Source: Diphasiastrum complanatum (Eukaryota; Streptophyta; Lycopodiopsida; Lycopodiales; Lycopodiaceae). Taken from it: DNA of 64,000 bases. The notes under the pieces are model-generated. The model searched no databases and was not told where the DNA came from. It was given only the letters and a program-made list of their open reading frames with translations. The position numbers were made by a program, and so were the translations under genes. The stretch lies in NCBI GenBank assembly GCA_029204225.1, contig CM055093.1, forward strand, positions 31,569,777 to 31,633,776, read 5' to 3'. Positions 4,406-61,441 of the stretch are shown here, piece after piece. Position 1 is the first letter of the stretch. Each line of letters begins with the position of its first letter.

Positions 4406-5501
4406 CCTTCTCAATCTTGGTCATGAAAGCTTTCAGTCGGTTGTTGCCATCCCACACAAGAAACATTTTGTTGCTCAAATGGGCCCACTCAGGGCATGTG
4501 GCAATTTCATTCTTGAATTCAAGGTTCACCTCTTGCCATAGAGGATCCCAATCTGATATAATTGTAGGAGTCAATTCGTGCTCACTACCGTCAAGGCCCC
4601 TAATAGAGAGGATGACTGATCCCTTCGACTCGAGGAACCCAAATCTCTCAAACTCATACATCATTTTTGATAGATCCTCTTTGATAGTTCTTACGGCTTC
4701 ATTTGGCACAAGCCTACATAGCGAGATATGTGGAGGGGGAATAGATGCCTTTACTCTCAAACGATCCAAAACAATTTGGCATACATTAGTTTGTAATACA
4801 TACGATCTAGGAGTATCTTGGTTTTTTGATGTTCCTTTTCCTATAGACAATGTAAAACAATAATGTTAAGCCAAAATCCGTGTAAATTCCAAAATTTTAG
4901 TGTAATAAACTTAAAATTATTTAAAAAATGCAAAAGTTAGCAAATTCGGCTGAGTTAAGTGTTTGAAAACCTTTTTTGGGGGTGTCAGTAATGGACAACA
5001 CCTTTGAATTAGATGCTTCATCTGTGGTTGCTTTCCCTATAATCAATCAAAGTACAAAATGTATGTAGTAAAAGTATGTGTATACATTTTTTTTTCTTTT
5101 TCTTTCTCAAACGGTTTTTGTTTTATTGCCATGAAAAGACAGTTTGTTCTGAATCGCCATGGGATGTAAGAGCATTAACATTTTATGTAGATTGTCAATA
5201 AAAATACCTTCTGAAACTGAATCAACAGAAGGATTTGCATCCTCCTATCTGAAGCTGTGGCATCCTCTGAAGTATCATTATTATCCTCCTATGCACTACA
5301 TCGGCTAGCAATAGGGCTCTCATTATTTACCTCATAAGCTTGAGTTCCAAACACACCGACGGGCATGTCCTCCATGACTGGTGATGGGGGGATGGAGGTG
5401 GGTGGCAGAAATGTTATGGACAGTTGGCTATCACAGCTCTCACGTCTGCAACATGATCTAAGATTGTACCTAGAAAAATCAGTGAATGCTGAGGACTCCA
5501 T
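4406..5501 (-). CDS. Spliced gene, possible ParB/sulfiredoxin-like domain protein
   Basis: Proposed minus-strand exons are 5331-5501 (ATG at 5501, 57 codons, donor GAG|GTAAAT), 5208-5244 (37 nt) and 4406-4840, which ends at a possible donor G|GTATGC or runs on to a stop at 4383. The phases join cleanly (0, then 1). The third exon carries ISLCRLVPNEAVRTIKEDL, then FGFLES, and near its end VWDGNNRLKAFM. A start motif of the type L.PNE.VR followed much later by DGNHRL..AM is the layout of ParB/Srx-fold proteins, where the DG(N/H)(N/H)R loop binds nucleotide. The fold call is inference from motifs only. An alternative acceptor at 5289-5290 and an extra cassette near 4996-5030 (it starts GGAAAGCAACC) do not keep frame. 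The 3' end is unresolved, so the gene may continue or be truncated. Confidence 0.4.
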
Positions 5502-5565
5502 AACTAGGTATGAAACAATGTAGAGCAAGTTAGCTCAAAATAAAGTATGTTCCACAAACATGAAA

Positions 5566-5568
<3 letters not shown>

Positions 5569-5619
<51 letters not shown>
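5569..5619. repeat. (CT)n microsatellite, about 25 units
   Basis: A perfect CT run lies 70 bp upstream of the ATG proposed at 5501 on the minus strand, where it reads as GA. GA/CT runs near plant promoters are common, so a 5'-leader role is possible but not shown. A looser CT-rich patch follows at 5700-5720. Confidence 0.9.
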
Positions 5620-5622
<3 letters not shown>

Positions 5623-5944
5623 CGTTTCTGGTCCATGATAAATGCGTTGTTTACACCTTCATACTCTTTCTTTCTCTTTCTACTGCTATCCATTGCCCAT
5701 CTCTCTCTCTCACTCTCTCAATGGCTGAGGAATTAGGATGGCTGATGGTGGATGGGAGTGGATAGGCTGTAGGCAAAATGGAGAGATGAAGACAAACCCT
5801 AAGCCATTGGAGGGGGCCGGGCAGATGGAGACGGGATGGCCAGGGAATGCTGAAGGCTGAAGGTTGAAGTTGAACCCTACTATGTTGATGGGTGCAATTT
5901 GAAAGTTGAAAGAGTTGAAGCCTACTATAATTGGTTCAACTGCA

Positions 5945-7982: not shown

Positions 7983-8137
7983 AAAGCTCATATAAACTAA
8001 GACATTAAGTTTGCTCTATCTGTATTACTGTTATCAATTCTCATATAGGTAGCTCTTCATCGCCATCATCCAACGAGGCTAGAGTCATTGACAAGTTCAA
8101 TGGTTCTAACTTCTACATCTGGAAGTTAAAACTCTGG

Positions 8138-10850
8138 ATGATGTTGATAGATAGAGATCTTTGGGATGTAGTAGAAGGTGCAGATCTGCAACCAGAAGAT
8201 GGTGATCAAGCAAAGGCATGGAAGATCAAAGATCAGAAGGCCTTAGCATGTATCACACTCAATCTGGCCGACTCCCAAATATCCCACATTACCACATGCA
8301 AAACCTCTAAGGATGCATTAGATTTGTTATCAAATCTCTATGAGACTCATGATGTAACTACTAGATTACATCTTAGAAGGAAGTTCTTTACTCTTAACAT
8401 GTCTGATTCTACTGCCATCACTTCTCACATCAACAAGTTCAAGTTTTTATTGGATCAGTTATCGGCTGCAGGATGTTCTATTCAAGATGATGATGCCGTT
8501 ATGACCTTGCTTTCTTCTCTTCCAAAGTCGTATGAATACTTTGTGGTGATAATCTCCACAGAACCTGACCTCACTCTTCAAAAGGTGATTGGTCACCTAC
8601 TTCAAGAAGAAATAAAGAGAACGACTAGCAGCCTGTCTATCAAAGACAAATTCACGGCGAACATGTTATTAGTCTCTAAGATAATTGATGAGGGCTATAC
8701 GGTTACTTTCTCATCTGAGCAGTGTACAATATTCGAGGAAGATACTGATCTGACTACATGCACTAGAGTCAGAAATCTTTACGTACTCTCTAATTCAGTT
8801 GCATTGGCTAGTGTCTCTAATGAAAATGTAAACGATAGTGCTGTTCTGTGGCATAGTCGATTTGGACACGTGAATACAAGATCACTTTCCTATATGCATT
8901 GTAATAACTTAGTTGATGGATTGAATTTTCTTTCTTCATTAAATAGGAAATCTTTCTTTTGTGAATCATGCGTCTATGGCAAACACTCTAGAAGCAAGTT
9001 TCCCAAATCACATTCCATCAAAACAAAGCATGTATTGGATCTTGTACATAGCGATCTCTGTGGTCCTATGCCAACTCCATCATTAGGAGCTGCAATTTAT
9101 TTGATCGATTTCATAGATGATTATTCTAGATGGTCTACAGTCATGTTCATTAAGCAAAAATATGAAGCCTTTGAATGCTTTAAGAGATTCAAGGCCACGG
9201 GTGAGACACAAACGTCTACAAAAGTGAAGGCACTCAGAACTAATGGTGGTGGCGAATACATCTCTAACGAGATGTTCGACTACATGGCTGAACATGGTAT
9301 TAGAAGACAATTCACCACTTCCTATTCACCTCAACAGAACATGATTGCAGAAAGGAAGAATCGAACTCTTCTCAACTTAGCCAAATCCATGCTACATGAA
9401 GCACACCTACTTGCAAAGTTCTAGGCAGAAGCTGCTGCCACAGCCTATTATGTGCAGAACAGATCTAGCACCAAAGCCGTCAACAACAAAATTCCTTATG
9501 AAGTTTGGCATGGACACAAGCCTAGTGTCAGCCATTTAAAAATCTTTGGTTGTATATGTTTTTTTCACATTCCTAAACAGCTTAGGAAGAAGCTAGATCA
9601 TAGGACAAATACATGTATTTTCATTGGCTATCCTGATGAGCATAGAGCTTATAAAGTTTATGATCCATCCACCAATGTGTAATTTGTCTCTAGGGATGTA
9701 ATATTTCAAGAACATACATACTATGATTTCAAGCAACCATCGATAAATGATGCTATGTCATTTCATCCTATTTTACGTAGCATGGATTCTTCCAATGTTG
9801 ATGTTCTTTCTACAGAACCTGCAACTACAATTATAGAAGTTGAGCAGTCGACAGTACCTGTCATTAGACCAGACCAAGCTAGCTCGAACAAATCTAGAGA
9901 AATTCAAGAAGAAGTATCATCGCATCTTGGTCAACCAGACGTCCGCAGATCCTCACGGACTCGGACAGTTCCTGAGAGGTTTACACCTCAATCGTTCTGG
10001 ACTTCATCAGAAGAACCAGAGAGCCTAGCTGAAGCAATTAACTCCAAGGATGTTGTGAAGTGGCAAGAAGCTATGGAAAGCGAGTACAACTCACTTTTGA
10101 CAAATCATACCTGGACACTGGTTGACTTTCTCACTCACAAGAGAGTTATCGACAACAAGTGGATCTTCAAGAAGAAGATCAACTATGATGGTTCTATTGC
10201 TAAATGGAAAGCATGGCTGGTGGCTAAAGGATTCACTCAAGTTTAAGGAGTGGATTACCAAGAAATTTTCAGTCCTATCATCAAGATGCAGTCAATCAGG
10301 ACTCTGATTGCATTAGCAGCCGTAGAAGACCTCAAAATGCACCAAATGGATGTCAAGACAACATTTCTCAATGACAATGTCGAAGAGGAGTTGTATACCT
10401 TCCAACCGAAAGGATTCAAAGGCAAAGGCCAACATCACAAAATGTGCAAGTTGCACAAAGCAAGCTACGATCTGAAACAGGCCGCAAGAGCATGGTTCGA
10501 TAGAATCAACTCTTATCTCATTCAATTGGGATTTGCAAACAATTCAATTGACTATAATATTTATTCAAAGCATATAGGCACCAATTCAGTTCACATAGCT
10601 CTTTACGTAGATGATGCATTTATTTTGTCTAACGACACCTCTCTTCTGCACACTACTAAGAGTGATCTGTCAAAGGAATTTGACATGACTGATTTAGGAG
10701 CTATCCATTCTTTGTTAGGAATTCACATTATCAGAAATAGACTTCAAAAGAAGATCTATCTTAGTTAGCAGGATATCTAAAAGGCATTTTAGAAAAGTTT
10801 CATATGTCTGATTGCAAACCAATTGATACTCCAATAGATCCAAGTATAGT
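8138..10850 (+). pseudogene. Copia element 1 gag-pol, first part
   Basis: One reading frame runs the whole way to 10,768, broken by TAG at 9422, TAA at 9680, TAA at 10,244 and TAG at 10,766, then a 1-nt frameshift before HMSDCKPIDTP. Gag (UBN2 type, residues 1-170) ends HLLQEEIKRTTSS and passes directly to LLVSKIIDEGYTVTF, which normally follows protease. The CCHC knuckle and the DSG protease are thus missing by an in-frame deletion. The pre-integrase motif (LWHSRFGHVN, CESCVYGKHSRSKF) and integrase follow. The catalytic motif LRSDNGGEY has become LRTNGGGEY, which removes the second Asp; the Glu in AERKNRT is kept. Reverse transcriptase retains YVDDAFIL. The frame stops at the insertion at about 10,855. 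The element could not move on its own proteins. Confidence 0.9.
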
Positions 10851-10892
10851 CGGTCGACTTTTGATGGACTCAACTCTGTCAACTTTGTATGC

Positions 10893-11040
10893 AGAGTATG
10901 GACGCTCAGCTCGGTCCACAGTGAATTCAGAGCATGGACGCTCGGCTCAGTGCACAATGATTGTAGAGTATGGGGGCTTGGCTCTATGAGCAGTGTATGT
11001 AGAGTATTGCTCGGCAGTGTATGGAGACTAGAAATTTCTG
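10893..11040. repeat. 36-bp tandem repeat, four copies
   Basis: AGAGTATGG-type starts fall at 10,893, 10,929, 10,965 and 11,001, exactly 36 bp apart, with GCTCnGCTC cores. It lies just inside the insertion that interrupts Copia element 1. The 36-bp period is a multiple of three, but stops occur in each frame after the third unit. Confidence 0.85.
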
Positions 11041-11426
11041 AAAACATTTGGAGCAAGAAAAGCAAGAAATAGCTAAAATGCAGCTATACTAGTTAGTGGA
11101 AACCTATCTCCGGCATCGGCGCCACTGTAAGGTCAAAGATCTCTTGTAGTAGTAGCCCTTCCGCCTGTCAACAAGGGTTAGAACACTGATAGGTACCTAG
11201 CTATGTAAAGATATTACTTTTAGATAGTTTTCTACTTCTTACACTAACACTACCACCTTTAACACTACCCTCACTAACTCTACTCCACTAAGCTAGCGTT
11301 CAACATGAATTGTAGTGAAAAGAGATGGGAGAGAGAGAGAGTTAGATGGATAGAAGGATCATAGAAGGTAGAGGAATAGAGAGATAGAGAGAGAGAGAGT
11401 GTGTGAGTGAGAGAGTGAGGAGGGAC
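11041..11426. other. Left arm of the DNA inserted in Copia 1
   Basis: No gene. It ends in a GA-rich stretch (11,325-11,420) directly before the left LTR of the nested element. I found no matching sequence on the right arm, so the outer inserted element remains unidentified. Confidence 0.35.
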
Positions 11427-11696
11427 TTAGAATTTGCTTTGCACAGGAACACAGATCATGCTACACAGTAATACAGACAGAAAACACTCTCCACAGCAAG
11501 CTCACATAGCAACTGTATTTCTCAAAATGAAATTACACTGTACATATAGTTGTTCACTCAAGCAACCCATGCATGACCCAGGTTGCCGTTGGCGGGATGC
11601 GTGTCCTGTCGACTTGCCTCGTGGCGAGGCCAACTGATCCTTATCCACTGATAGGACCCACAATACAGTAACATAGTGATTCTACTTTAATTCTAA
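11427..11696 (-). repeat. 3' LTR of Copia element 2
   Basis: A 270-bp direct repeat of 15,385-15,654, differing at only a few positions by eye. It has terminal TTAGAATT/AATTCTAA and is adjacent to a polypurine tract on its right. Confidence 0.9.
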
Positions 11697-11752
11697 CTCT
11701 CTCCCTTAAAGTAGAGTCTACTTTTTATACAGTCATATACATAGCTTTAAAG

Positions 11753-12724
11753 TCAACAAACTTTAAGTACAAAAAGCTTTGATCTAGACTTATCAAAATT
11801 TTCTCCAGTAAGTGGCTTAGTGAAAATATCAGCTAGTTGTTCTTCTGTGCTACAATGAACAACATGAATTTCACGACTTAGCAGCCTCTCACGTATGAAG
11901 TGATACTGAATCTCAATGTGTTTAGCTCTCACATGAAACACTGAATTCTTTGCTAGCTTAATGCCACTCTGACTGTCGCTATGTAAAGTCGTGGGATTTT
12001 TCTGCTTCATGCCAATTTCTTCCAAGATTTGTCTCAACCATATAGCTTCTTGTGTTGCACTACACATTGCCTTATACTCTACTTCTGTGGTGAAAAGAGC
12101 AATTGTACTTTGCTTCTTACTAGACCAGGAAAAGCAACTACCACAAAACTGGGATATATACCCTGTGGTGGATCTACGATCATCATAGTCACCTCCCCAA
12201 TCCGCATCCACATAGCCACACAATTCAGGTAAACCATCATGCTTCCTGTAAATCAAGCCATACTCTGAAGTGCCTTTCACATAACGCAAAATGCGTTTAG
12301 CTTCCTTCCAATGCATTTCTGTAGGTGCTGCCATAAACTGACTTACAATGCCAACAACATAGCATATATCTGGTCTAGTCGTGGTAAGGTAAATCAAGCT
12401 CCCTACTAACTGTCTATACAACGTAGCATCAAATGACTGTGACTCATTAAGCTTAGAAAGCTTTTTACCTGGTCCAATAGGAGTGTTTACTGGTTTGCAA
12501 TCCTGCAACCTAAACCTGTGCAGCAACTCTTTGACATACTTCACTTGTGTTAAACCCACTTCATGTCCTTTTTGCCACACTTCTACTCCAAGGCAGTAAT
12601 GCATCAGGCTGAGATCTGTCATCTCGAATTGTTCCATGAAGTCTTTCTTGATCATGTCTATCATCTCTTGATTATTTTTTGTAATAATCAATTCATCAAC
12701 ATAAAGGGCAACCAAAGCAATCAT
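11753..12724 (-). pseudogene. Copia 2 reverse transcriptase C-terminus and RNase H
   Basis: The frame is 323 codons and open. It starts at the catalytic loop, which reads LYVDELII instead of LYVDDLII, so the second active-site Asp is lost here. It continues with the conserved MTDLSLMHYCLGVEV, the thumb/connection, TTRPDICYVVG and RNase H (YVDADWGGD, RRSTTGY, SSKKQ, HSDSQSGIKLA, RAKHIEIQYHFIRE, ADIFTKPL). It ends at 11,753, 57 bp before the LTR. It is the least damaged coding piece of this element. Confidence 0.9.
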
Positions 12725-13430
12725 ACCATCAAAGCATAAGACAAAGATTTGGATCAGAGTGTGAAAGATTTCATATCATTATGATCTAACCCACCTGAAA
12801 GATCTTGGGTTACAAAGAGAAATACTCTATCAATCTCAATAATGTAGAAAAATCAGCATCTACACACAAAATGAGATGCAAACTCTAATAGAACTTGATC
12901 AAACATGAATCAAATGATTAAATACTATTGTTGTCTATACAAAACCAGCAAGCTACTGTATTTCACACATGTGAATCCAAAAATAACAAATATAGACCAT
13001 TCTACACATAGAATTGCATGCAATTACAAGTATAGTGCACCAATGAATGGTAGAACCCAGGAGAACCATGTATAAGCATGAAATGAGATAGAGAAGAGAG
13101 AAGATATCTCTCTCCATGAGTTACATCCTTTTATAACAGGTCCAAACCCTATCTGGCCACTTGGATTTCCCTCCAAAATGCTAACCCTACTATATTTGGG
13201 TCTAGATTCGAAGTACCCAACATTCAAATTTGAATCTACTCAAATTCAAATCTACATGTCCTTTTTGCCACACTTCTACTCCAAGGCAGTAATGCATCAG
13301 GCTGAGATCTGTCATCTCGAATTGTTCCATGAGGTCTTTCTTGATCATGTCTATCATCTCTTGATTATTTCCCATAATAATCAAGTCATCCACATAAAGA
13401 GCAATCAAAGCAACCATACCATCATTTGAA
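12556..13430 (-). repeat. About 175-bp reverse-transcriptase segment duplicated around 520 bp of foreign DNA
   Basis: The segment 13,254-13,430 repeats 12,556-12,732 (from the YVDD region through CLGVEVWQKGH) with few differences. The right copy keeps YVDD, while the left copy has YVDE. The 520 bp between them has no coding content. Copy differences argue against a recent assembly artefact; a template switch or abortive insertion during reverse transcription is a likely origin. Confidence 0.85.
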
Positions 13431-14874
13431 ACCAATGGGTTTCTTGCCGACTGGTGGTTCTACTAAGTCCCATGTGCTATGCTTAGCAATTGACTCCATC
13501 TCCTCTCCCATGGCCTTGACCCAAATGTCATCATCCTTCGCTTCACCATAAGTCGAAGGTTCTTTGTTTTGAATAATGCTAGATAAGAGAGCATAATTTG
13601 CTTCATACCTTTCAGGTAGTGTCTTCTCTCTTGTTGATCTTCGTAGCTCTCCCTGGTTAGATGATCCTGGAAAGTCATCTATGTCGTGGCTCTCCAACAA
13701 TCTCTCAAACCACTTAGGGAGCTTCCTGTTAGGTGATCGGCTTCCTTGTGAAAATGTATCCCACGGTACATTCTTCTCCTTGCGTTTGTCACCTGCAACT
13801 TCAATCCTTCTTGTACCAAAAGGTTTGTCCCTACCTCTCCAGCCTGTTTTTTGAGGTTGAGTAGTAGTAGTATCTTGAGATGTATCCTCATGTTCATCAC
13901 TCGAAAGGTCAATGAATGGATCATCATCAGGTGGTATCCTCACTATACCATCTTTCCCAGTGGATGTGTCTATCTTCTCAGCATCCTCGTCTTCATACAT
14001 CTTGGATTCATCAAAGATAACATCACGGCTTATATGGATTTTGTTTTCGACTGGATCAAAACATCTATAGCCCTTCACACGATCATCATATCCTAGGAAT
14101 ATGCACTTGATAGATTTTACATCAAGTTTACGTCTCTCTTCCTTAGGAATGTGTACAAAGGCCTTACATCCAAAGATTCGCAAGTGATTCACCTTTGGCT
14201 TCTTCTTCGTGAATGCTTCCTCAAGTGTTATCTTTGGTATGGCAATGGTAGGACTTCTATTTTGAAGATAGACTGCCGTGCTACGTGCTTTTGACCAAAA
14301 ATCTTTTGGTAGTTTCATCTCAGCTAGCATAGATCTGGCACTTTCCACAATCGTACGATTCTTGCGCTCAGCTACACCATTGAGAGCAGGAGTATGAGCT
14401 TGTGTAAATTGTCTTTTAATCCCACATTGATCACAAAGATCATTGAAGTCATTAGACTTGTACTCACCTCCACTATATGATCTTAGGACTTTGATCTTCC
14501 TACCTGTCTGATTTTCGACCAATGCTTTGAAGCTTTTGAAGTTATCAAATGCATCTGATTTCTTCTTCAAGAAGTAGATCCACATCTTACGTGACATATC
14601 ATCAATAAAGGTCATGAAAGGCTTTTCCTAAAGACATGGTCCTCATAGGCCCGCATAAATCTGTGTGGATTAAATCCAGGATGTTCTTTGCTCTTGCAAC
14701 ACCCCCTTTATTAAACTTTTCTCGATGCTGCTTCCCATATACACAAGATTCGCACATCGATTTCAAGTGATCTTCTATGGTAGGCAATCTTGTTACCATC
14801 TCCAATTTTCTCATCAAACTGAGGCTTTTCAATTTCAAGTGACCAAGTTTCTTATGCCACAACTCAGTTTGCAA
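13422..14874 (-). pseudogene. Copia 2 pre-integrase, integrase and start of reverse transcriptase
   Basis: From the right, the frame reads LWHKKLGHL and CESCVYGKQHREKF, then the first integrase Asp in DLIHTDLCGP. A frameshift near 14,610 leads into the main 397-codon frame. The second Asp motif is LRSYSGGEY, so Asp is replaced by Tyr. NGVAERKNRT with the Glu is intact. The C-terminal part (IFGCKAFVHIPKEERRKLD, FLGYDDRVKGYRC) is well kept. The frame passes through a hydrophilic spacer into the first residues of reverse transcriptase (STWDLVEPPVGKKPIGFK) and then jumps to the YVDD segment. Roughly the first half of the polymerase domain has been deleted. Confidence 0.9.
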
Positions 14875-24633: not shown

Positions 24634-25355
24634 CTTGAAGGGTTATTCATGATGATGCAATTGAGCATTCATATCTGTACGTGATATTTTTAAACTTTTT
24701 TTTTAAGTTTTTGCAAAAATCTCATTGTAATCTTGTTCTTCTTGTTTTCAACTGTTTTTGCTTGTGTTTGATGCATGTCTTTTGTTTTTAATCCAACCCG
24801 AACCTCTACAACCTCCCCACCAATAGAATCCATCATCATTTTTCATCTTTTTTTATTTTCTTGCTCGCGCACTAAGCACAAGTCTTTTTTATTTTCTTGT
24901 TAAACACTTTTCCTCCTATCAAACACTCACCTTCGAGATCCATCTGGGATCTGAAACTAACAGAAAAAGTACGAAACCACTCTAATATTCAACCAATCGA
25001 CATTTCTTATTGCAATAAGGACACATTGAACTTCTTTTGAAAAGATCAAACAATTTGGTGAACATTCTATCTAGTCTATGTCTAAAAGTTGGGAAGAAAT
25101 GAACAAAATCAGTATAATGCATGTACTGGAGTGAACCTATGGAGATAATAGGCTTATTTGAGTATATCCCTAAATCTAACATAATGTTCATAAAATACAT
25201 CAGAATTTGATTGTGTAGTCTTGAAAACATGTAAATATGGCTTGAATAAGCTGTGGAAGTAGTCTAGATTTTCAGTAATCCCAAATTCAATAAAAAATGA
25301 ACTCAGGCCTGAATCTCATGTAGATCTTGAGGAAGAGGCCATGGAACTAATGTAG
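24634..25355. other. Intergenic, nothing recognised
   Basis: Expected position of the Gypsy gag or 5' LTR, but neither is visible. The stretch is T-rich with no credible frame. Confidence 0.35.
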
Positions 25356-26134
25356 ATATTGCACTTGTGCACAAGGGAGAACAAACGAAACGAAACTAAC
25401 TCTAAAGATTGCGCACAAGAGGGATATGTACGGTAGGTAGCTACTGAATATTGCACTTGTGCGCAAGTAGGTATCGTTGTAAAAAATGGACAACAATGCG
25501 CGCGTACAAGAGCGATATGCCGTGAATTTTGGGAAAGAAAACAGTAAAAAATTAATTGGGTTTTGTGCTTTTATACTGAATTCTCACACGTGGTCAGCTT
25601 TCGATTGAGCTGCAGGCCCTGGCACGTGTGAGGTGACACCTAGACACATGTGAAATGACACCAGTACACGTGTCTCGTGTCCATTCGTTAGTTCGACAAC
25701 ACGTATCGCTCTCGCATTTGCCCGTACAAATCCCACATGTGTAAAATGACAACTTGACACGTGTCACTCTCGCATTTGGCCGTACAAATTCCACATGTGC
25801 GACAGGACGTTTTTTTGAAGGTGCAAACCGTGATATAAAATCACAAACTCCGATGAATTTTTTTCACTTTTTTTTCACTCTGCATATTGCACTTGTGCAT
25901 CTCCTTCACAATCAATATTTTGCCTACTGCCTTCCATGCGCACAAGTCTGATATTGCTGCCTATGTGTCTCCTCATATCAAACTTGTGCACCTCTCTTCT
26001 ATACTAATCGATCTCTCTGATATTCGGCTCGCACAGGTCCGATATACCGTACATTCTTTCCGTACATATCGGTCCTCTGTGAGGGCTTCATAATCCTTCC
26101 CTGCTCATCCTAGTCGTCACGCACAAGTGCGATA
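25356..26134. promoter_or_regulatory. Upstream region with a repeated GCACAAGTGCGATAT motif and CACGTG-like words
   Basis: A roughly 15-bp word, GCACAAGTGCGATAT, or close variants, occurs about eight times in both orientations. Positions are 25,356-25,370 (reverse), 25,411, 25,449-25,463 (reverse), about 25,500, 25,884-25,898 (reverse), 25,939, 26,032 and 26,119. Between them lie several ACACGTG/CACATGTG words (25,580-25,800) and a tandem duplication with a 58-bp period (25,699 and 25,757). All this is upstream of the H3-like frame at 26,152. It may be a promoter with clustered binding sites, or the subterminal repeats of a DNA transposon. The sequence alone does not choose. Confidence 0.5.
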
Positions 26135-26151
26135 TCCCCTAGTACACTTCC

Positions 26152-26664
26152 ATGGATAGGAGAAAGCAGAAAAGGAGGGATTTCTTCTCTGCTGGCTCAT
26201 CCTCAGCTCCTGCGGTTTCCATTACACCTCCTGCTAGATCTAGAATGTGCAACCGCAGCAAGTGGCTCTCTGAAATACGTAAGTATCAGAGATCAACTGC
26301 TCTATTGAATCCCAGAGCTCCATTCTACCATGTCGTCTAAAACATAACTAAAAATGATCTCGGACAGTTCGTTAGATTCACACCCACTGCTCTTCAGTGC
26401 CTTCAGGAGCCTGCCGAAGACTATATTGAAGATTCATTTTTGCTTGCTATTCATTCCAAGAGAGTCACCATAATGCCCAAGGACTTTCAGCTACTGATGA
26501 GAATGAGGAAGAGATTTTGCAAGTTACACATATCTCAGCCTGCTGCTCCTAGACCTATTCCTCTAGATAGGACTGATCTTCCTACCAAGCGTCCTAGGAA
26601 GCAGGCAGCCCCCAAGAGAGCTCCGAAGAAAGTAAGGAGCAACCACAGAATTTGCGAAGCCTAA
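26152..26664 (+). pseudogene. Histone H3-like (CENH3-like) reading frame with one stop
   Basis: ATG at 26,152. A basic tail without the canonical ARTKQTARKS is followed by an unmistakable H3 core: LSEIRKYQRSTALL (alpha-N), APFYHVV, an in-frame TAA at 26,338-26,340 where H3 has Arg/Lys, then [16 protein letters not shown] and [14 protein letters not shown]. The first loop is one residue longer than in canonical H3, and AEDY replaces AEAY; both are features of centromeric H3 variants. About four residues are missing before the HSKRV segment. A Lys/Pro/Arg-rich extension of about 45 residues follows instead of ending at GERA. There is no intron. After a 1-nt shift near 26,640 the coding stretch runs on into the protease-like frame, so both may once have been one protein. 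Confidence 0.8.
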
Positions 26665-27800
26665 CCTGGAACCAATTGTAGATAACGCTGCTCTTGATAA
26701 TGTTGTAAATATAGCTACATCAATTTTGGATATCTCTGTAATTCCTGTAGATACTACACATCCACCTCCTCCTCCTCCTTCAAATCTTTATACATATATA
26801 GATTTCGATGATTATCTTAAATTTGAGAAGGACATAGCAGATGTTGTAGATAGAATTGGTACTCCTTTTTGTTTTAGACTAGAGGAACTTGACTTTAGTA
26901 TAAACTATAAAGTTCTTGATTGTTTGGATCTCAAAAATAGACGGGCTTCTATCAATGATCCTGTGATAGAGTCTGGGCTTACACTCTTGCAATATGACAT
27001 TGCAAGAGATTCATCCAATGAGTTGTTGGTGCTGAGTGACTTTTTGCTTCAAGCCTTCAAGGAAAATAATGACACATTGTCACAGTGTCTGACTAGTGGA
27101 TTCACACCAACAACAAAATACATGCTCGTCCCTTTTTATACCAAGTAAGATATATTAAATTCTTCTTGTTGTTTAATGCTTTATCATTGGCATTATCAAT
27201 GGAAATAATTCTTAGAATTGCAGCTAAAGAAATTTCAATCTTATTTTGCAATGACCACTGGAGTTTAAACCTGATCTCTATTAAGAGATCTGTAGATAAT
27301 ATTGTTAAAGGTTTTTGTGTCAAGATGAACTCGATGAGCAATATGCATAAGGATGTAGATATATACCTTCCATATTTAAGTAAATATATCCCAACAGATG
27401 TTCCCCATTCCGTGGACTAGCAGATCGTTAGTTTGGAGGTAAATTTTGTCTTCCTTAACAACATTTTGAAATCAGTATTTTAATGTATTTGTTTCATTCT
27501 AATTCATTCTGTTTCATAATTGATTTCTTGTGTGCTAAATTCTTTTGCAGTCACCCCTGCAAAATGATTCATTCAGCTGTGGGTGGTACACATTATACAA
27601 TGCAAAGTTATTTTTTGAGTGGTTCAACCTTCAGGAAGATGGTGATATTTCTAAGGTAATAAATTTTGTTTATTTTTATTTTTGGAATCATGATTAGTTT
27701 TCTATTTTGTTGATGTTTTTAGCCATTACTAATACATGAATGTTCTATCTTGCAGTTTACACTTCTTGCAGTACACATCAAGCCATGTGTACAGATTTAG
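26640..27800 (+). pseudogene. Ulp1/SENP-like (C48) cysteine protease, four exons
   Basis: Exons: to 27,144 (donor A|GTAAGA), 27,216-27,438, 27,551-27,655 and 27,756-27,800 (stop TAG). Phases fit at every junction. A Pro-rich linker (six prolines, about 26,765) precedes the domain. ASINDPVIESGLTLL corresponds to the L.D..I...L..L start of Ulp1 domains. NDHWSLNLI supplies the catalytic His, and SPLQNDSFSCGWYTLYNAK supplies the oxyanion Gln and the nucleophile Cys. These enzymes cleave SUMO or related modifiers. One in-frame TAG (27,418-27,420) interrupts exon 2, just before the QIVSLE segment that leads into the Cys motif. The upstream H3-like frame is one nucleotide out of phase. It is either a recent pseudogene or a gene with sequence errors. 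Ulp1 genes captured by Mutator-like elements (Kaonashi type) are known in plants; I see no terminal inverted repeats here. Confidence 0.65.
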
Positions 27801-28096
27801 ACAATAAATTATCTTGAGCATACTGGCTAGGGCAAGGCTTTAGCCTCCCATTGTTGATGATGGTGCAAAGGATGATGTAATTATACTAAATAAAGATTAG
27901 AACAAATACAGATAGCATAAAACAGAAATAGATTGCACATGTATAGAATTCATAGAAAAATATACATTGATATATCAATTGCTGCTCCATTTTATGAATT
28001 TGGGAGCACAAAATACATGTACTGATGCCCAACTTGGGCTTTCATTTATTGAATGAAAGAGTGTATACACAGATTGTTACTAAAGTTTATTTGAAG
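27801..28096. other. Intergenic between two convergent genes
   Basis: About 300 bp between the stop of the protease-like gene (+) and the stop of the gene on the minus strand. AATAAA-like words near 27,805 and 27,890 could serve the plus-strand 3' end. Confidence 0.4.
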
Positions 28097-29211
28097 CTAT
28101 TGTTCTCCCACAATGGTGATTGTTGTAGGTAGATCTTTGCAGCACGTTATCAGCTTCTGTCTTTTTCGCATCTGTGACATGACAAATATTAGTGAATGTG
28201 CAATTGTAAATGATGACATTTTCAATTATTTTGTTCTATTTTGAAATGGCAATAAACATAAAGTACTTACGAGTCTTCCGTTGATGATAAATTTGAAATA
28301 TGTTGGTAGATTGATTTGTAATAGCATGAGCTCTGTTATGATAAAATCAAGCTTCCAATGCTCTTCCACCTGAACCATAGTCAAATATACCTCATTGTAG
28401 ATAATGCTTATCTCCATTCGATTTGTGTGACCATTTAGTTCAAAGTCTTGATCCAATGGTAGCCATGTACTTTCAATTTTCTTGTATCTCTGATAGCTAA
28501 ATGTGAGCATTTGCTTTTCGATATGATAAGAAAAAATCATTGAAGACTTTTTAATCCTGCATTCTATGTCATTATTTGTTTTACTATCCCAGCCTTGATC
28601 CATGAGATCTGACAAAATCTCATCTGATAAATCCTTGCAAACAAATAAAGTTGGTGTCCTACAAACACTAGCACTCGAAAAAAAATCAACAAATATATGT
28701 AATGAGATAAACCAATTTAGGTGAACAATTTTTGAGCCTGTGCTTATCTTCATAACATTTCTAATATCAATGAGTAGCTTGCATCTCAAGGATTCAGAAA
28801 GAATACTGTCAGGAGTAGGCCACTCATCACTTTGAAAACTAGGCAATGGAATTGTTTCGAGCTTGCCAAAACCACTATCTGTTTGTGGCGTATATAAAGA
28901 GTCATAAAAATAGATACCACAATCTGCAAGTTCCTTTGGACTTCTTCCTCTGTGTTGTAGCTTTCCAACATCAGAATAAATCATTAACAATATTCCTGCA
29001 AGTGATTGTGCTGGCTCCCATTCACTTATGCATGATGGATATAAATCTGAAAGAAAAAAACAATGTTGAAGCATTTAAATCATAATCTGAAGAGCATCAA
29101 TAAAGAAAATCACCTATGATTGTTGTAGAGTGCATATGTTTTGATATACTTACAATTACATTTTTGATGATCATGAGGATTAATATCATGTACTTTGATT
29201 TTTGAATGCAT
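28097..29211 (-). CDS. Uninterrupted three-exon gene of unknown function
   Basis: Minus-strand exons are 29,154-29,211 (ATG at 29,211, donor ATT|GTAAGT), 28,271-29,046 (acceptor TTTCAG, donor CTC|GTAAGT) and 28,097-28,171 (acceptor TCACAG, stop TAG). Phases are 1 and 0, and the total is 909 nt, 302 aa, with no stop. Unlike everything around it, it is open throughout. The start has CNYLYPSCISEWEPAQSL followed by AGILLMIYSD. By eye this recalls the segment after the active-site Cys in ubiquitin/SUMO E2 enzymes (YPSG.VCLSIL..W.PA....IL..I), but with deletions, and the remaining 240 residues match nothing I know. I give the E2 idea low weight. It is convergent with the Ulp1-like gene 300 bp away. 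Earlier exons may exist. Confidence 0.55.
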
Positions 29212-29333
29212 ATATACATGTTGTACTAAACTTCTGATATCGATTGACCTCCCGGCATTGATTAAGCAAGTACATAATCACTCTTGTGGATCTTCTAAAA
29301 TCCATTTATGTCTAAAAGCATTGTACTTTCACA
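29212..29333 (+). repeat. Probable end of a Copia 5' LTR
   Basis: The stretch ends TTTCACA directly before a primer-binding-site-like GTATCAGAGCC. The LTR start is not recognisable, and no partner LTR was found downstream. Confidence 0.35.
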
Positions 29334-35571: not shown

Positions 35572-37800
35572 CTATGTTGACTTGAACATGAATCTTGGTA
35601 TTATTCCAAGATTGGCTCTATGCTTGATGAAGGAATTTTTGCTCAAAGGTTTGGTGAGCAAATTTGCAATACAAAATGATGTGTTGATGTGCTCCAAGTA
35701 GATTTCCCCTCCAATGAGCTTCTCTCTCACGAAGTAATGTGCAACTTCGATGTGTTTGCTCCTTGCATGAAATATTGGATTGTTGGCAAGAGCTTGTGCT
35801 AAAATATTGTCACACATGATCAAAGGTAGATCATCTTCCTTGATTATCTTTAGCTCCATTAGCAACCTCTTGATCCAAAGCACTTCTTTTGTTGTAGTAG
35901 TAAGTGCCTAATATTCAGCTTCACAAGATGAGAGTGATATAGTATCTTGCTTTTTGGAAAGCCAAGATATCAAATTTCCTCCAAGATATATGACATATGC
36001 ACTTGTAGATTTCTGATATGCTTTATCACTTGCAAAATCCGAGTCAGAATAGCCAACCATAGAAAGATCTTCACTTTTATATAACAAACCATAATCATAG
36101 GTTGAAGATATGTACCTAAGTACCCTTTAGGACATTTCCCAACGATGAATACGGATTTTGCATAGCTTGGCTCAACTTATGAACACTAAAACTTACATCA
36201 GGCCTAGTTATAGTGAGCCAAAGAGTGATGTCCACGAAGGATCCTTCATCACCTTTGTTAGGGTCTTTTACAATTTGCTCCATAGGAGTATCAATACTCT
36301 TACAATTTAGCATATTGAACTTTTTTAACATTGAAAGAGCATACTTGGATTGACATACAAAAGCTTTATCATTATGGAAACTAATCTCTAATCCTAATAT
36401 GTAATGAAATTTTCCAAGATCTTGCATCTTGAATTCTTTTCCAAGTGCAATTTTGGTTTCCTCAACTAACTTAATACAACTTCCTGTCAGGATAATATCA
36501 TCAACATAAATGAGAAAAATGCCAATATCTCTATCATAAAACTTGACATATAAGGAAGGATCATAGTTACTAAGATTAAATCCTAGTGAATCAAGAAAAG
36601 TGTTAAGTCGAGAATACCACAATCTTGGAGCTTGCTTTAGTCCATAAAGACTTGTAAAGAGCAAGCAAACTTTGGTCTTGTCTTGGATGAACCCAAGAGG
36701 TTGATCCATATAAATTTCTTCTTCTAGATATCCATTTAAAAATGCATTAGAGACATCTAGTTGAAAAACTTTCCATTTGAAAAAACAAGCAATAGAAATT
36801 ATGATTCTAATTGATACTATCCTTGCAACTGGAGCAAAGGTCTCCTCAAAATCAAGTCCATAAACTTGAGAAAAATCTTTTGACAAAGTCTTGCTTTGTA
36901 CTTGTTGATTATGCCATCTTGATTATATTTGACTCAAAAAACCCATTTGCAACCAATGGTGTGCTTGTTGGATGGAAGATCCACAAGCTCCCATGTCTTG
37001 TTGGCAATCAATGCTTCATATTCCTCCTTCATGGTTAGAAACCAATCTCTTGATTTGAGTGCATCATATACATCCTTTGGCTCCTCATGTGAAACAAAAT
37101 AAGCATAATTAGTGGAGTTGAGTTCCACTTGCTTGCCTTTATCTCCATATGTAAGCCTCTTAGGCTCAGATCTTTCTCTTTGTGATCTTGTTGGTGAAAA
37201 GATTCGAGGTGACTCCTCAATTATCGGCCCCATCTCTCCATGATAATCTTCAAGGGTGATGATAGGAGAATCCTTTTGAGAATCTTTGATCTCGGCCTCC
37301 TCAAAGATGTATTTTTTATTCTCATGGAAAATAACATCCCTACTCTCAATTGTAATTGAAGTAGAGGGAACATAAATTCTTAAGCCTTCTTGTTGGATGA
37401 GTGTCCAACCATGATCCCTTTGACTAAATTTGGATCATCTCTTTTCCTTGTTTCCAAGGGTACATGAACAAAGCAAGCACATTCAAAAACTCTAAGGTGA
37501 TCAACCTTAGGTTTCTTCTTAAACAATACTTCATATGGTGATCTTCCTACAAGTGCAATGTGAGGTAATCTATTGCACAAATAATTTGCACAATTAATTG
37601 CTTCTCCCCAATATTCAATAGGCAAAGAAGCTTCAACTCGGATTGCTTTAGCACATTCACATAGAGATCGATTTTTTCTTTCAGCAACTCCATTTTGAGA
37701 TGGAGAATAAGCACAAGAAAACTCTCTCTTAGTCCCTTCAGCCTCACAATAATCATAGAACTTGTTGGAGATGTATTACCTCCTCCATCACATCTTAAAG
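35572..37800 (-). pseudogene. Copia element 4 pol (integrase, reverse transcriptase, RNase H)
   Basis: From the right: the second Asp motif of integrase as LRCDGGGNT (37,790), the integrase C-terminus (YWGEAINCANYLCNRLPH, HLRVFECACFVHVP) at 37,380-37,650, and the linker and start of reverse transcriptase (TWELVDLPSNKHTIGCKWVF) at 36,934-37,233. Next is a long open reverse-transcriptase frame (36,116-36,886) with LDVSNAFLNGYLEEEIYM, SLYGLKQAP and YVDDIILTG. RNase H ends at 35,572 (ARSKHIEVAHYFVREKL, LLTKPL). Stops and frameshifts separate the blocks. It ends at an inversion breakpoint near 37,800. Relatedness to Copia 3 is clear from the shared FLNGYLEEEIYM and YDPSLY wording. Confidence 0.9.
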
Positions 37801-45368: not shown

Positions 45369-46634
45369 TTAATTGAAACTTAAATATTTAGTAGCTGCTA
45401 ATTTACAATTGATTAGATTATATCTGATAAGAATGTTGTGAAGACACCTTTGTTGAGTAATAAAGATCAGTTGTCTCGCTCTGTCTCTGTGGATTTGAAT
45501 GCCCAAACAGAAGTAAGCTTCGCCCAGATCAGTCATGTCGAATAGTGACCATGTCTGGTTCTTGATCAGAGAGGAATACTTTGTGTCCATCGCTTCTCTC
45601 AAGAGATCAGAGTCTGGTGGGCTAAGTGCCTCTTCGACAATCATTGGTTCCTACATTAAAAGAGAGGCAGACTCAAGAGTATACCTTGTGGGTTGTGAGC
45701 GCACTCGACTTGATCTTTTTGGAGGTGGTGTCGGTTGATGATCCAATCTTGGAATTTGTCGTTTTTGAGTACCAACAACTTCTTTGTCTAATTTGTTGTC
45801 GAGTAGTTGATCGACAATGGGCACGCTTGAACCAGAGGTTCGAATTATCATGTTGGAGGTAGGTGTCGAAGATTCGCATTGAACTTTGTCCTTGCCTTTG
45901 AAGTTGATAAACTGATCCTCGATAAAGATTGTATCTTTGCTGAATAAAATCTGTTGGGTATCGAGGTTGTACAACTTGTAAGTGTTGTCAGATGAAGTGT
46001 ATCCGATAAGGATGGTTTTGAGACCTTGGAAGTCAAATCTTTTTCTTGACTCTTTCAGGATCGGCATGTAGGTGATACATCCGAATACTCAAAGGTTCTT
46101 CATCGAAGGCTTAGATCTTGTCCAACTATCATGTGGTGTTTTGCTTGATAAGACCTTGGTTGAACATCTATTCTGGATGTAGCTAAGCCATTCGACTGAG
46201 ACGAATAAGGAGTAATAAACTGTTGTTCAATGTCTTGGATTTGGCAGTACTCCTTGAATTTGGTAGCGATGTACTCTCCACCATTGTCGGACCTCAGGGC
46301 TTTGATATGTTTCTTTCTCTACATGCTCCTTGAAGATTTTGAAACAATTGAAAGCTTCTGATTTCTTCTTGATAAAGTACACCATAGTCCTTCTGGAAAA
46401 TTCATCAATAAAAGTGATAAAAATAATGAAATACTTTGCATCCTTCAGTGAAGGATTCTGCATTGAGCCACAAATGTCTGTATGTACAACATATAATAAT
46501 CCTCGAGCAATATGTTGATGGCTTGATCTAAATGGTTTCCTAATCTGTTTACCGACTAGATATTCTTGACAAAAAGGTAATTTGACTTTCCTATCTGGAT
46601 AGTCGAGATCAAGAACAATAGATTGCTTAGACAT
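45369..46634 (-). pseudogene. Copia 6 integrase and collapsed reverse transcriptase
   Basis: Integrase (VVHTDICGSMQNPS, FIDEFSRRTMVYF) at 46,227-46,634 is frameshifted at the second Asp motif. The C-terminal part (RFDFQGLKTILIGY) is at 45,900-46,067. The reverse-transcriptase frame at 45,369-45,644 reads REAMDTKYSSLIKNQTWSL and passes in frame directly to FDMTDLGEAYFCLGIQIHRD. Some 150 residues including YVDD have been removed without breaking the frame. Confidence 0.85.
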
Positions 46635-46744
46635 TTGTAATATAGAAGCATGATTTAGGTGACCAAGTCTATAATGCCAAAGTAAACTTTTATTGATCTG
46701 AACATAAGTACTAAGGGCCTAACTAGAGGCAGAAAAGCAATGAC

Positions 46745-47945
46745 TTAATCTGTACAAGTATCCATGTCGACTACTTTACACTGATCAGATTCAAATTCTA
46801 CTTTATGTCCTAGATCTGTAATTCTGCTAAGAGAGAGCAGATTTGTAGATAGATTCAATACATGTAGGACATTTGAAAGTAGTTTAGATTGACCATTTGC
46901 AAAGTTCAATCTTATTGTACCTTCACATTTGATAGTTTGTGTGCTATTGTCACCTAGGTAAACATCTCTCTTGGTACTATAAGGCATATAGGACTCAAAA
47001 CAGCCGATATGGCTGGTCATATGTTGTGTGGATCTAGAATCCAGAAACCAGGAGCTGTCGTTGGATGCTTCTTGATGGCTAGTCATGAATGCATCATAAT
47101 CTGCTTCTTGATTGGGTTGTGGCGCTTCTGTAGTTGCATTTGCCATCTGATTCGATTGTCCCTTACTATTGTTCTTGGCTTGTAGTATGCGACAATCTTG
47201 AATCTTGAGGTTGGTTTGTTTGTAGTATCTGTAGAACGGCTTCTTCTTTGGCGGTGGGTTTGACTGCTCTTGACACTTTGTCAGCTTTTGATTTTGCTTC
47301 GATGTTTTGGGACTTTCTTCTTCTGCTTAGTCGAGCCTATGTTGGTGTATAGGGCATGAGAGTCAACAGCCAAAGAACTGGAGGACTCGTTTCTTCGAGT
47401 GTCTTCTTGCAACAACATTGTAATGACTCTTGAAGGACTCAGTTCTGGGTGTGTCGTGATGATCATCACCCAACTATCGTATGAGCTTGGCAAGCTTGAA
47501 AGTAGTGTCATTACTGTAACTTGATCGTCTATGATTGATCTAAAAGTGGTCATTTGCTTCAGTAGGTTCTTGAACTAGTTGATGTGATTCTGCAGGGAAT
47601 CACCATTTGTCATCTTAAGAGAGTAAAATTTCTTCCTGAGATGTAGCTTAAAAGCTATGTCTCGCACTTCGTACAAGGTGCTTAAGATGTCCCAAACTTC
47701 CTTGGAGGTCTGAGCTTCAGACACATAGCTGATTTGAGTGTCTAATATATTAAGGATGATCAGCACAAAAGCTTTGCCATCTTTCAACTTCCATCGGGAG
47801 ATTGCAGCATCGTCGACTTTGGGTCTTGCCTCTGCATTTGTAACAATGTCATACAAAGTGCAGTTCTCATCTTAAATTTCCACAGATGGTAATTGGCTCC
47901 ATCAAGCTTGTCCATGATAGGACTGGCTTTCCCTTGGGAATCCAT
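46745..47945 (-). pseudogene. Copia 6 gag and protease
   Basis: Gag starts at ATG 47,945 (MDKLDGANYHLWKFKM), is frameshifted near 47,850, and continues as AISRWKLKDGKAFVLI, LHLRKKFYSLKM and MTLLSSLPSSYDSWVM. No zinc knuckle is legible. The protease frame (46,745-47,146) has SSWFLDSRSTQHMT, where the catalytic D-S-G reads D-S-R. Confidence 0.85.
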
Positions 47946-48204
47946 GTGGATAGTAAGTCTAGGTAATAGTAGCAACTATCAGTGACTTAGGTATGAAAAT
48001 CTGATGCAACTTACAGAACAAAAAAACTGTTATTCTATCAGCTAATAGAATTAGATTTTGTGGGAAGCTTATCAAGCTATAAAAAATAGCTCTAAGATAA
48101 AGTCGCTTAAGGAATCAGATCTATTTTGATACCATGCTAGGCTGGTATCAGATAAAATGATCAGAAAAGAGTAATTACTGCTCTGATACCATGTTGGAAA
48201 CATG

Positions 48205-51164
48205 GTGCGCTTTTACAATCGTCCTTGAGGGATGCGCAACTAGCATCACTATAGGAAAGCATCTTGAAGCCTGCATCACGACAATAATACAAGCCATAAT
48301 CTCTCGTTAATTGAAGATATTGCAAGATTTTTTTTGCAATCTTCCAGTGTGTCGAGCCTGGATTCGTGCAGAATTGGCTCATCCTGAACACTGCATAAGC
48401 AATGTCAGGACGTGTGTTGTCGACAAGGTACATCAACGAATCTATCAACTTCTTGTAAGGTATGAGCTACATTTGTTCTCTCTCTTCTGCAGTCCTTGGA
48501 CAATCATCGTTTGTCAGCACCGTTCCTATGCGCATTGGAGTATTCGCTCCTTTGCAATTCAGCATCCCAAAATCCTCTAGGATTTTATGGGTGTATTTGG
48601 ACTGGTGAAGGTACAACTTACCTCCCTCATAGTCCCTTTCAATTTGCAAGCCAAGATAACACCTAGCTTCTCTCAGATCCACGATCTCGAAATGTTTCGA
48701 GATGTCTGTCTTCACTTCAGCAATCAGCCTCTCACTCTTGCAGAGTATCAGAGTGTCATCCACATATACAGCCACAATGATGATCTTTCCATCTGTGACT
48801 CTGACATACACATTCGAATCAGCCAACAATGGCATGAATCCTAATGATTTCAGGGCTTGATCCTTCTTCTTGTACCATTGTCGAGCTGACTGTTTCAGAC
48901 CGTAGATACTTCTATGCATTCTGCATGCATAATCAGGAAGTGAATTCGAGACATATCCTGGGGGTTGATCCATGTAGATCTCTTCATCTAGCTCGCCATG
49001 CAAGAAGGCTGTCTTCTCGTCCAATGTGGTTCATGAGGTCATAAGCGGCTGCATATGCAAATAACAAATGTAGGGACGAACGTTTGACAACAAGAGAGAA
49101 GGTCTTGGAGTAGTCAATACTATATCTTTGAGAAAATCCCTTCACTACCAGTCTTGCCTTGTATTTCGAGAAGTTTCCATCTGGCCCATACTTGAGTTTG
49201 TAAATCCATTTGCATTTGACAGTCTTGCGCTTATGTGGTAATGGCTGCAGCATCCATACTTGGTTCTTCCTTATGGATTCCATCTCTTCATTCATGGATT
49301 GGATATATTTGTCCTTCTCTGGACATTCAATCGCCTCCTCAAAAGTTTGTGGTTCGCCACTGAATCCACAGAACTCTTCTGATGCAGAGGCAGAGCTGCC
49401 TGGCACGTATCTTGTTGGCACTCTTTGTGGTCATGTCGACCTTCTTCGTCTTTGTCTGCTCTGCTAGGTCCGGAGCCATCCTGGTTTACAGGAACTGTAG
49501 CAACAGGCTGCCTCTCGAATCTTTTGTCTTCTGATTCGGCACTTGAATGCGGAGCGACTCGAAGATCATCGTCTTCGTGTTTGTCTCATGCTCCCTCTAT
49601 CGCTGGTGACAAGTCATAATACTGTCTCTCCAGAATTTCATAGCTGACAGGATCGTCATTGGCCATTGTCCTACTCTCACCAAGTCTGACATCTCTCACT
49701 GTTTTCACAGTGTTCGTGTCTAGCATGTAGACTCTATAGTATGACGAATTGTTGTCATAACCTACCAGAAATCCATGTTCAGCTTTCTCATCAAGCTTCT
49801 TTCGAAGCTTATTAGGAATATGTGCATCAGTTGCACAACCAAAGATTCTGCTGTGAGATAGGTTGGGCTTTCTACCCCACCATAATTCGTGTGGTGTCGT
49901 GTGAGGGACACCAGACTTCCCTGTCCTATTTTGGATGTATGCAACTGTAGCTACTGCTTCAGCCCACATTACTCTTGGAGCTTTTGAGTAGGCCATCATG
50001 CATCTAGTAGCCTAGGATCACCTTATGTGTGTCAGATGTTGACGTTGAACACAGATCTGCACAAATGTAGGCTGTTGAACAATTTTTGTTCGATCTCTCT
50101 TTACCCATTTTTGAGCTCTCAAGCTCCTCGACATAGGACGAACTGTTACTGTTCTCCTGTCTATTCTATGCTGATTTGTTCCTCGGGTTCAGACGACAAT
50201 CCATGGCTGCATGACCCTTCTTGTGGCAGTGGATACACTCAATTTTTGGATTGAGCCAACACGTATCAACTGTGTGCCCATCTTGTCTGCATCTCACGCA
50301 AGTCTTCTTTTCTCCACCTTGCTGTTTCAACCTCCCTTTTCTCTTCTAGTTGCCTTTGCTAGTCCTCTCTGCTTGCTGATCACGATCCTGCATTTGATTC
50401 GACTTCCTGTTAGGCTTGAATTGTTTCTTGGATTTTTCTTTGTTGTCGTAGAGGGCCTGGTTAGAACCATCCTTGTGATCAAGGTGTTCTCTAGCCTCAA
50501 CTTCCTCTCGAATCTCGACAATTGCTTTTTCGAGGGTCATGGTAGAAACTTTTGCAAGCAGGGTTCTGGTTGTTTGGAAAGATCTGGGTAAGGCTCTCAA
50601 CAGGTAAGTGAGCTGCTTCTCTGCTGACACTATGTTCTCTGCTCTAGAGTTGTGTAGTGACAGGAATAGATTCTTCATCTTCCTTACAAAAGAAGTGAGA
50701 TCTTTGTCGTCCCACTGCAGGTTCGTCAACTGATCTTCCAGCATCATTATTTGACTTCTTGATTTCATTTGAAATCTCGTGAGCAGTGTATCCCACATCT
50801 CCTTAGCTTTGGAGAGTGTGAGACTATCTTCGATGGATGACGATAGCAAGGCTACTGCCTTGTCATTTTTCTCCCTCCATTCGCGTAGCTCTTTGTCTGA
50901 TGTCGTAGGCATCTCTTCTGTGCCATCCACCCAGGGGAATAAACTTTCACCCTTGAGTATCAATGATGTCTTAACTTTTCAGACTAGAAAGTTAGATCTT
51001 GAAGAATCAAGAACTGTACAGATCTTGCTCTGTATGCTGCTGATTGAAGCCATTGCTTCTGAAGTGCGTTCTCTTGTTGATGGTTGTTTGTTTGAATGCT
51101 TGGCCTCCTGGATATGATAGGCCTTTGGCTAGGTCAGATTATGACAATGTAGGCTCTGATACCA
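48205..51164 (-). pseudogene. Copia element 7 gag-pol, large middle deletion
   Basis: Minus strand from the right: primer-site complement GGCTCTGATACCA (51,152-51,164), gag from ATG 51,053 with a stop in place of the Trp of NFLVWK, and open gag at 50,346-50,963 (LLRALPRSFQTTRTLL). Two zinc knuckles follow (CVRCRQDGHTVDTC and CIHCHKKGHAAMDC, 50,200-50,310). Protease and most of integrase are deleted. The integrase C-terminus (VAYIQNRTGKSGVPHTTPHE, RIFGCATDAHIPNKLRKKLD) is at 49,586-49,999. Reverse transcriptase (KCKWIYKLKYGPDG, KTAFLHGELDEEIYMDQPPG, YVDDTLIL) is at 48,467-49,421. RNase H stops at SDASCASLKDDCKS, where the Copia 6 LTR end begins. Confidence 0.88.

Positions 51165-61397: not shown

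Positions 61398-61441
<44 letters not shown>

Follow-up and report, generated by a model that had tools for sequence, protein, structure and literature searches.

A probable transposon-borne gene of Diphasiastrum complanatum that joins an H3-type histone fold to a Ulp1/SENP-like (C48) domain

Introduction

VANC is the element-encoded anti-silencing protein of VANDAL transposons, and its targets often form tandem repeats, as stated in the portion of PMC5735166 considered here; the sections of a review on VANDAL and KIU elements used in this work add that some Vandal VANC genes carry a Ulp1 domain of unknown role (PMC13317346). The fusion of the protease to an H3 fold makes its role in the Ulp1-carrying plant transposons testable. 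CACTA, Ginger, and other DNA transposon superfamilies also carry Ulp1.

Here, we describe a locus in a 64-kb stretch of Diphasiastrum complanatum DNA (CM055093.1, 31,569,777-31,633,776), which as a whole is referred to as the window, and its relatives in the 1.74-Gb genome of the same organism.

Results

In the window, the gene is laid out in four exons on the plus strand. The H3-like part of exon 1 (26152..26661) has a frame that runs from the ATG at 26152 to 26661, is interrupted by a TAA at 26338, and contains a short N-tail, a histone fold, and a basic, proline-rich linker. The remainder of exon 1 (26639..27144), with linker and the N-terminal region of the protease, is read in a +1 frame with respect to the H3 part, and since the open protease frame begins at 26636, a single +1 shift near 26.64 kb is indicated. 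Exon 2 (27216..27438) includes the catalytic His of C48 proteases (DHW), an Asn at the expected Asp, and the second in-frame stop of this copy, a TAG at 27418; exon 3 (27551..27655) contains the C48 Gln and Cys (QNDSFSCGW), and exon 4 (27756..27800) finishes with the stop codon TAG at 27798-27800. When joined at GT-AG sites, the exons translate to ...FCNDHWSLN... and ...LQNDSFSCGW....

With the TAA read as X, the H3-like frame matched PF00125 Histone above the Pfam cut-off (E 7.4e-21), and its two halves scored separately gave E values of 4.7e-06 and 1.4e-09. Exons 2-4 matched PF02902 Peptidase_C48, also above the cut-off (E 6.2e-05, 23.4 bits), and no Pfam family exceeded its cut-off when the protease portion of exon 1 was scored alone. 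The joint H3-like and C48 match in this window is beyond chance. These matches confirmed a preliminary description of this DNA, which had reported at 26152..27800 an H3 core and, after a 1-nt shift, a Pro-rich linker and a spliced C48 protease; the three lesions that it had listed (TAA 26,338, shift about 26,640, and TAG 27,418) were all found in place. The lesions in exon 1 are not common to all copies of the gene, as four others have no stop or shift there.

The genome was searched with the linker plus the protease N-part and with the C-half of the H3 part, which gave 4372 and 5853 first-look candidates, respectively, these being candidate counts and not confirmed copies. In each search 150 places were scored, at 75-88% identity for the protease half and 79-91% for the H3 half, the window's own place apart. 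The best 30 loci per search were read, in sets that overlap and contain some near-identical duplicates. H3 codons were found in 28 of the 30 loci selected by the protease half, window included, with at least 100 of the 127 codons in 21 of them; L008 and L019 had none. The protease N-part was found in 27 of the 30 loci selected by the H3 half, at least 118 of 141 codons in each. The preliminary description had named protease homologues that never carry the H3 part as the observation that would speak against a fusion, and the outcome was the opposite.

At most loci read, exon 1 was interrupted by stops or by breaks of the frame. Six of the 44 non-redundant copies had at least 330 exon-1 codons free of stops; in four of these (L014, L024, L033, and L068) a single open frame of 340 aa, starting with Met, covers the H3 part, the linker, and the N-part of the protease, and the remaining two (L010 and L057) use more than one frame. 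L008, L019, and L043 were stop-free too, with a coverage of merely 183-211 codons. An exon-2 stop is present in L014, L024, and L033, and exons 2 and 3 of L068 are stop-free. As three of the one-frame copies are thus stopped and L068 was read through exon 3, an intact gene was followed over its full length in none of the copies. A Pfam C48 search of the same genome returned three matches among 150 scored of 520 candidates, a small number because the search proceeds exon by exon and covers that part of the candidates. A viral origin was considered and dropped, since neither the fusion nor the transposase-like piece described below had a relative in viral_contigs.

The protease part was analyzed in residue rows covering 38 of the 44 copies for exon 2 and 34 for exon 3, with gaps omitted. 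The C48 residues were kept in nearly all of them (His 32/35, Gln 29/30, Cys 31/34). The place of the catalytic Asp was occupied by Asn in 38/38 rows, so that a His-Asp-Cys triad was not found, with the qualification that the assignment of this place is somewhat doubtful because the PDB alignment with Ulp1 has gaps at that position. The L068 protease scored 29.5 bits against a Pfam C48 cut-off of 20.7 (E 8.1e-07), and yeast Ulp1 (1euv) was the better of its two PDB matches (E 0.0028). The invariant Asn suggests that the C48 domain may be weak or inactive, and leaves room for a non-catalytic role, in which the domain, with the histone fold as its scaffold, would serve to bind SUMO or ubiquitin-like proteins. 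The modest Pfam score in L068 would agree with this reading, but we consider it unlikely, given that pure binding has no need of the retained His, Gln, and Cys, and that Asn is the third residue in papain-type proteases. Regarding splicing, donor 1 was GT in 37/39 and acceptor 1 AG in 29/38 aligned copies. The introns were not more diverged than the exons across copies; therefore, splicing rests on the reading frame and the GT-AG sites.

The H3-type histone fold was recognized by sequence (PF00125, E 7.6e-25), and the homologue L068:6149-7168 matched the H3 chains of the PDB with E 1.6e-25; similarity to the histone folds of CENP-T and CENP-S was weak and below their cut-offs. Canonical H3 has a modifiable N-tail, ARTKQTARK. 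This was absent from the element copies, where the N-tail is MDRRKQ(T/K)RRDFFS or similar.

The gene is part of a transposable element. The copy in the window (24941..29255, +) is an internal part, with neither inverted end attached; positions 24941-29186 are 87% identical to L076 over 4297 bp, and another comparison reaches 29255. L076 is a 9.37-kb element with inverted 34-bp ends at 97-130 and 9432-9465, and so has the matching inverted ends on both sides that define a TIR DNA transposon. Read in the direction of the H3 gene, L076 contains a transposase-like gene, ORF2 on the other strand, the H3-C48 gene, with six stops in exon 1, and ORF4, also on the other strand. The window retains the 5' part of the divergent gene ORF2 (24941..25399, -), which is cut off at 24941 and is 88% identical to L076:4596-5049, within an open frame that in L076 spans 4596-5660. 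ORF4 (28226..29074, -) is open here and encodes 282 aa with no Pfam family above cut-off; its dN/dS was 0.45 over 17 copies, with 0.82 and 0.70 in the shifted frames. In addition, the segment 20332..21102 (-) is a terminal fragment from a second related element, which is more diverged; its CATTAGAGGAG end lies at about 20332, and its identity to the element ends in copies D, B, A, and L076 is about 71-74%.

The 34-bp end sequence ATTAGAGGAGTTCTCAATATCAAAAAGACCCTTT was derived from a long-range comparison of three copies, and a C precedes most of the ends seen. It was found with up to three mismatches at 2393 sites in the genome, and at none when read backwards as a control. Comparison of target sites showed GAC on both sides of L076, provided that the outer C is excluded from the end, and no match for L074 or L075. 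An LTR retrotransposon had been suggested by a direct repeat of 914 bp that surrounds copy B; this reading was rejected for the inverted ends, and because the repeat has no TG...CA ends and contains coding sequence of the element.

We call the first gene of the element transposase-like by its position and a DLK...CxxC pattern, which we take to be that of DDE transposases. The gene is spread over several frames, for which Pfam gave no fitting family, and its PDB matches were not convincing (best E 0.16). The genome search with this gene gave 11981 candidates, 150 of which were scored at 90-95% identity, the query's own place apart; the number suggests that its copies may outnumber those of the H3 gene. 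From the top-150 lists, 24 cases in which the transposase-like piece and an H3 or protease match are no more than 10 kb apart were chosen by eye. The piece was upstream of the match on the same strand in 21 of them, at 1.2-4.2 kb; in the others it was downstream once and on the opposite strand twice.

The window also has an LRR receptor kinase gene at 57432-63150 (+), with the LRR (57432-59075) and kinase (61654-63150) parts separated by 2.6 kb of intron or insertion. Fragments of Ty1/copia type (gag, integrase, and reverse transcriptase) are present at 8009-14627, 36116-36922, and 46227-50978, assigned by scanning four ORFs and the remainder by eye.

Between ORF2 and the H3 gene, at 25356..26135, there is a phased array of nine 15-bp motifs resembling GCACAAGTGCGATAT. 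With up to three mismatches, these nine were the only matches in the 64-kb window; 100 shuffles gave a mean of 1.34 matches and a maximum of 4, a count that is no blind test since the motif was chosen after being noticed in the sequence. The sites mostly alternate in orientation and form two clusters, with steps of about 57, 35, and 56 bases. Their order is nearly the same in copies B, D, and L076, the array is thinner in copy A, and isolated matches outside it were seen in copies D and A; this recurrence could come from shared descent. It is possible that the array provides candidate binding sites for a protein encoded by the element. Such sites, phased within a divergent promoter, would suit a histone fold serving as a mere dimerization and DNA-contact module of the transposition complex, in the manner of non-nucleosomal histone-fold proteins, with the fusion at work on the array or the element ends, and so would the missing H3 N-tail and the sub-threshold similarity to CENP-T and CENP-S. 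However, the best matches of the fold are by far to H3 itself and the H3 motif is kept, which makes such a module improbable.

To place the H3 part relative to H3 and CENH3, identities and a tree were calculated with five reference sequences. Three element copies showed 53-56% identity to plant H3 versus 49-51% to Arabidopsis CENH3. Loop 1 was one residue longer than in H3 and one shorter than in the CENH3 references in the alignment with these sequences. In the tree, the element sequences formed their own group (100/99) and the five references the other, with the CENH3 pair at 80/72; the element sequences were joined to neither H3 nor CENH3. Most of the six copies shown have LLIP, VRxIT, EDY, and KDF, with L068 lacking LLIP. 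These are residues of Arabidopsis CENH3 rather than of H3, and maize CENH3 has neither EDY nor KDF. The preliminary description had termed the gene CENH3-like, which some of the signature residues make plausible, but the tree decides neither for nor against it.

A degenerate AIHARRVT pattern was found at six sites of the genome. One, L080 (G000:C3:74762790-74762960), looks from its sequence like an exon of the host's own CENH3. A second H3-like family, in which the linker is similar, accounts for three of the sites (L077-L079), and a third family for the other two (L081 and L082). At the corresponding position, the family of the window (family 1) has HSKR, where families 2 and 3 and the presumed host CENH3 exon have HARR. 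In the search with family 2, 46 of 150 scored places, counted by eye and including the query's own, had at least 72% identity; the others had 55-62%, and several of them were family 1 places from the H3 search. The search with family 3 gave 5082 candidates, which may include other families, and 150 were scored at 62-85%, the query's own place apart. This family is diverse, with open frames of up to 427 aa. A continuation into a protease was looked for in family 3, one copy of which has a single open frame over 191 bp; this stretch gave no clear match (best E 0.19).

Exact end sites listed on C1 were clustered, 15/83 at 64.9-66.7 Mb and 28/83 at 95-100.7 Mb, and these clusters may correspond to centromeres or to arrays of deleted elements. 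Along with the CENH3-type residues, the extended loop 1, and the HARR of the related sequences, this clustering could be accommodated by an H3 part derived from host CENH3, which would direct the element, or the complex that inserts it, to the chromatin of centromeres, where the C48 domain would act on kinetochore or centromere SUMO. We regard this as quite unlikely: the copies compared are nearer to plant H3, part of the signature is absent from maize CENH3 and from L068, family 1 has HSKR, the tree does not group the element with CENH3, and the top H3 and C48 matches are spread over many chromosomes, with few on C1.

The analysis of substitutions gave dN/dS values that omit stop codons and that post-insertion decay pulls towards 1. 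For the H3 fold, the ratio was 0.24 over 44 copies, with 0.88 and 1.18 in the shifted frames, and 0.15 across the six stop-free copies. The linker value of 0.59 is close to those of its shifted frames (0.65 and 0.76), so little selection is visible there, and the protease N-part gave 0.43, with 0.66 and 1.15 in the shifted frames. Judged by these ratios, the H3 fold is under purifying selection and has the strongest constraint within exon 1.

Stops recur at several codons of exon 1. The commonest is at codon 100 (11 copies), which is often GAA; others are at the CAG codons 9, 85, 120, and 75 (8, 6, 5, and 3 copies, respectively), and codon 66, which is the TAA of the window, is a stop in 7/44 copies, with CGA and CAA common there. 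Stops at CAG and CGA would fit C-to-T change at methylated CHG and CG sites, but codon 100, the most frequent of all, is not explained in this way. Stops common to several copies may be inherited. The lesions in the window, to judge from this pattern, look like ordinary repeat decay rather than sequence errors. The preliminary description had seen a gene that was recent or contained sequence errors; it is instead a decayed copy of a very numerous element, other copies of which are also stopped, some of them at codon 66.

That description had also offered two host genes captured side by side, which would now be functionless passengers, and although the window copy is broken, as is exon 1 at most loci read, this proposal is unsupported and highly improbable because the halves stay together in 28/30 and 27/30 of the loci chosen by either half (overlapping sets), the H3 fold is under selection, with a dN/dS well below its shifted-frame control, the very result named as counting against passengers, and two more diverged H3-like families exist.

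Discussion

The sequence leaves us nearly certain that this is a transposon-borne H3-C48 fusion. The best explanation overall, which we favor with some reserve, is that the window contains a decayed copy of a transposon accessory gene whose fusion product acts on chromatin, perhaps against silencing. The four-exon gene would yield one protein, with an H3-type fold, a basic proline-rich linker, and a Ulp1/SENP-like (C48) domain. The H3 fold would pair with host H4 or a similar partner, and this pairing would place the C48 domain on nucleosomes; once there, the domain would remove or hold SUMO or another ubiquitin-like tag. The outcome could be to counter host silencing of the element, as VANC does for VANDAL, and escape from silencing would be the element's likeliest benefit.

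The steps of this chromatin-directed model differ in strength. It is probable, from the conservation of the fold, that the H3 part tethers the fusion to chromatin; the fusion joins the protease to the fold with the highest constraint in exon 1, and this points to chromatin as the protease's workplace. That the fusion opposes silencing by deSUMOylation is suggested tentatively, by analogy, and from the sequence we infer, in line with an idea of the preliminary description, a putative deSUMOylating activity on a nucleosome-like particle. A bolder version, which is possible and somewhat doubtful, is that of a transposon-encoded histone variant, in which the element's own H3 would enter nucleosomes and bring along a ubiquitin-like protease that strips silencing marks; its lineage would comprise at least three families in one genome, two of them very numerous. 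If true, an H3-like subunit provided by the mobile element itself would represent a new means by which transposons influence host chromatin.

Ulp1-bearing plant transposons are already known. A transposon-encoded, selected H3-like domain was not found in the searches of open-licence papers, which listed none on a histone-carrying transposon; likewise, the word 'histone' is nowhere in the portion consulted of the review on VANDAL and KIU elements (PMC13317346).

When compared with H3 and CENH3, the element protein shares the histone fold with its H3-specific motifs, but it has no ARTKQ tail, is fused to a linker and a protease, and is encoded by a transposon. Similarly, its protease domain resembles C48 (Ulp1/SENP) proteases in exceeding the PF02902 cut-off and keeping His, Gln, and Cys, and differs from them in the Asn for Asp and in an N-terminal half that Pfam does not recognize.

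Among transposons, the element is similar to CACTA and Ginger in being a Ulp1-carrying DNA transposon. Its ends, CATTAGAGG, start with CATTA instead of CACTA, neither Transposase_21 nor an integrase core was among the Pfam matches of the element ORFs, and it therefore does not qualify as CACTA. The Pfam matches of these ORFs, taken as fragments and with E up to 5 or 10, also contained no MULE family, so a MULE transposase was not found. The element also resembles VANDAL with its VANC and KIU/Kaonashi, which, in the parts of the literature covered here, are also plant DNA transposons with a Ulp1/C48 domain in an accessory gene. A further similarity is that VANC target motifs are often tandem repeats. 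According to the same parts, however, those elements are non-TIR MULEs, whereas the element of D. complanatum has 34-bp inverted ends and an accessory gene that adds a histone fold to the protease domain.
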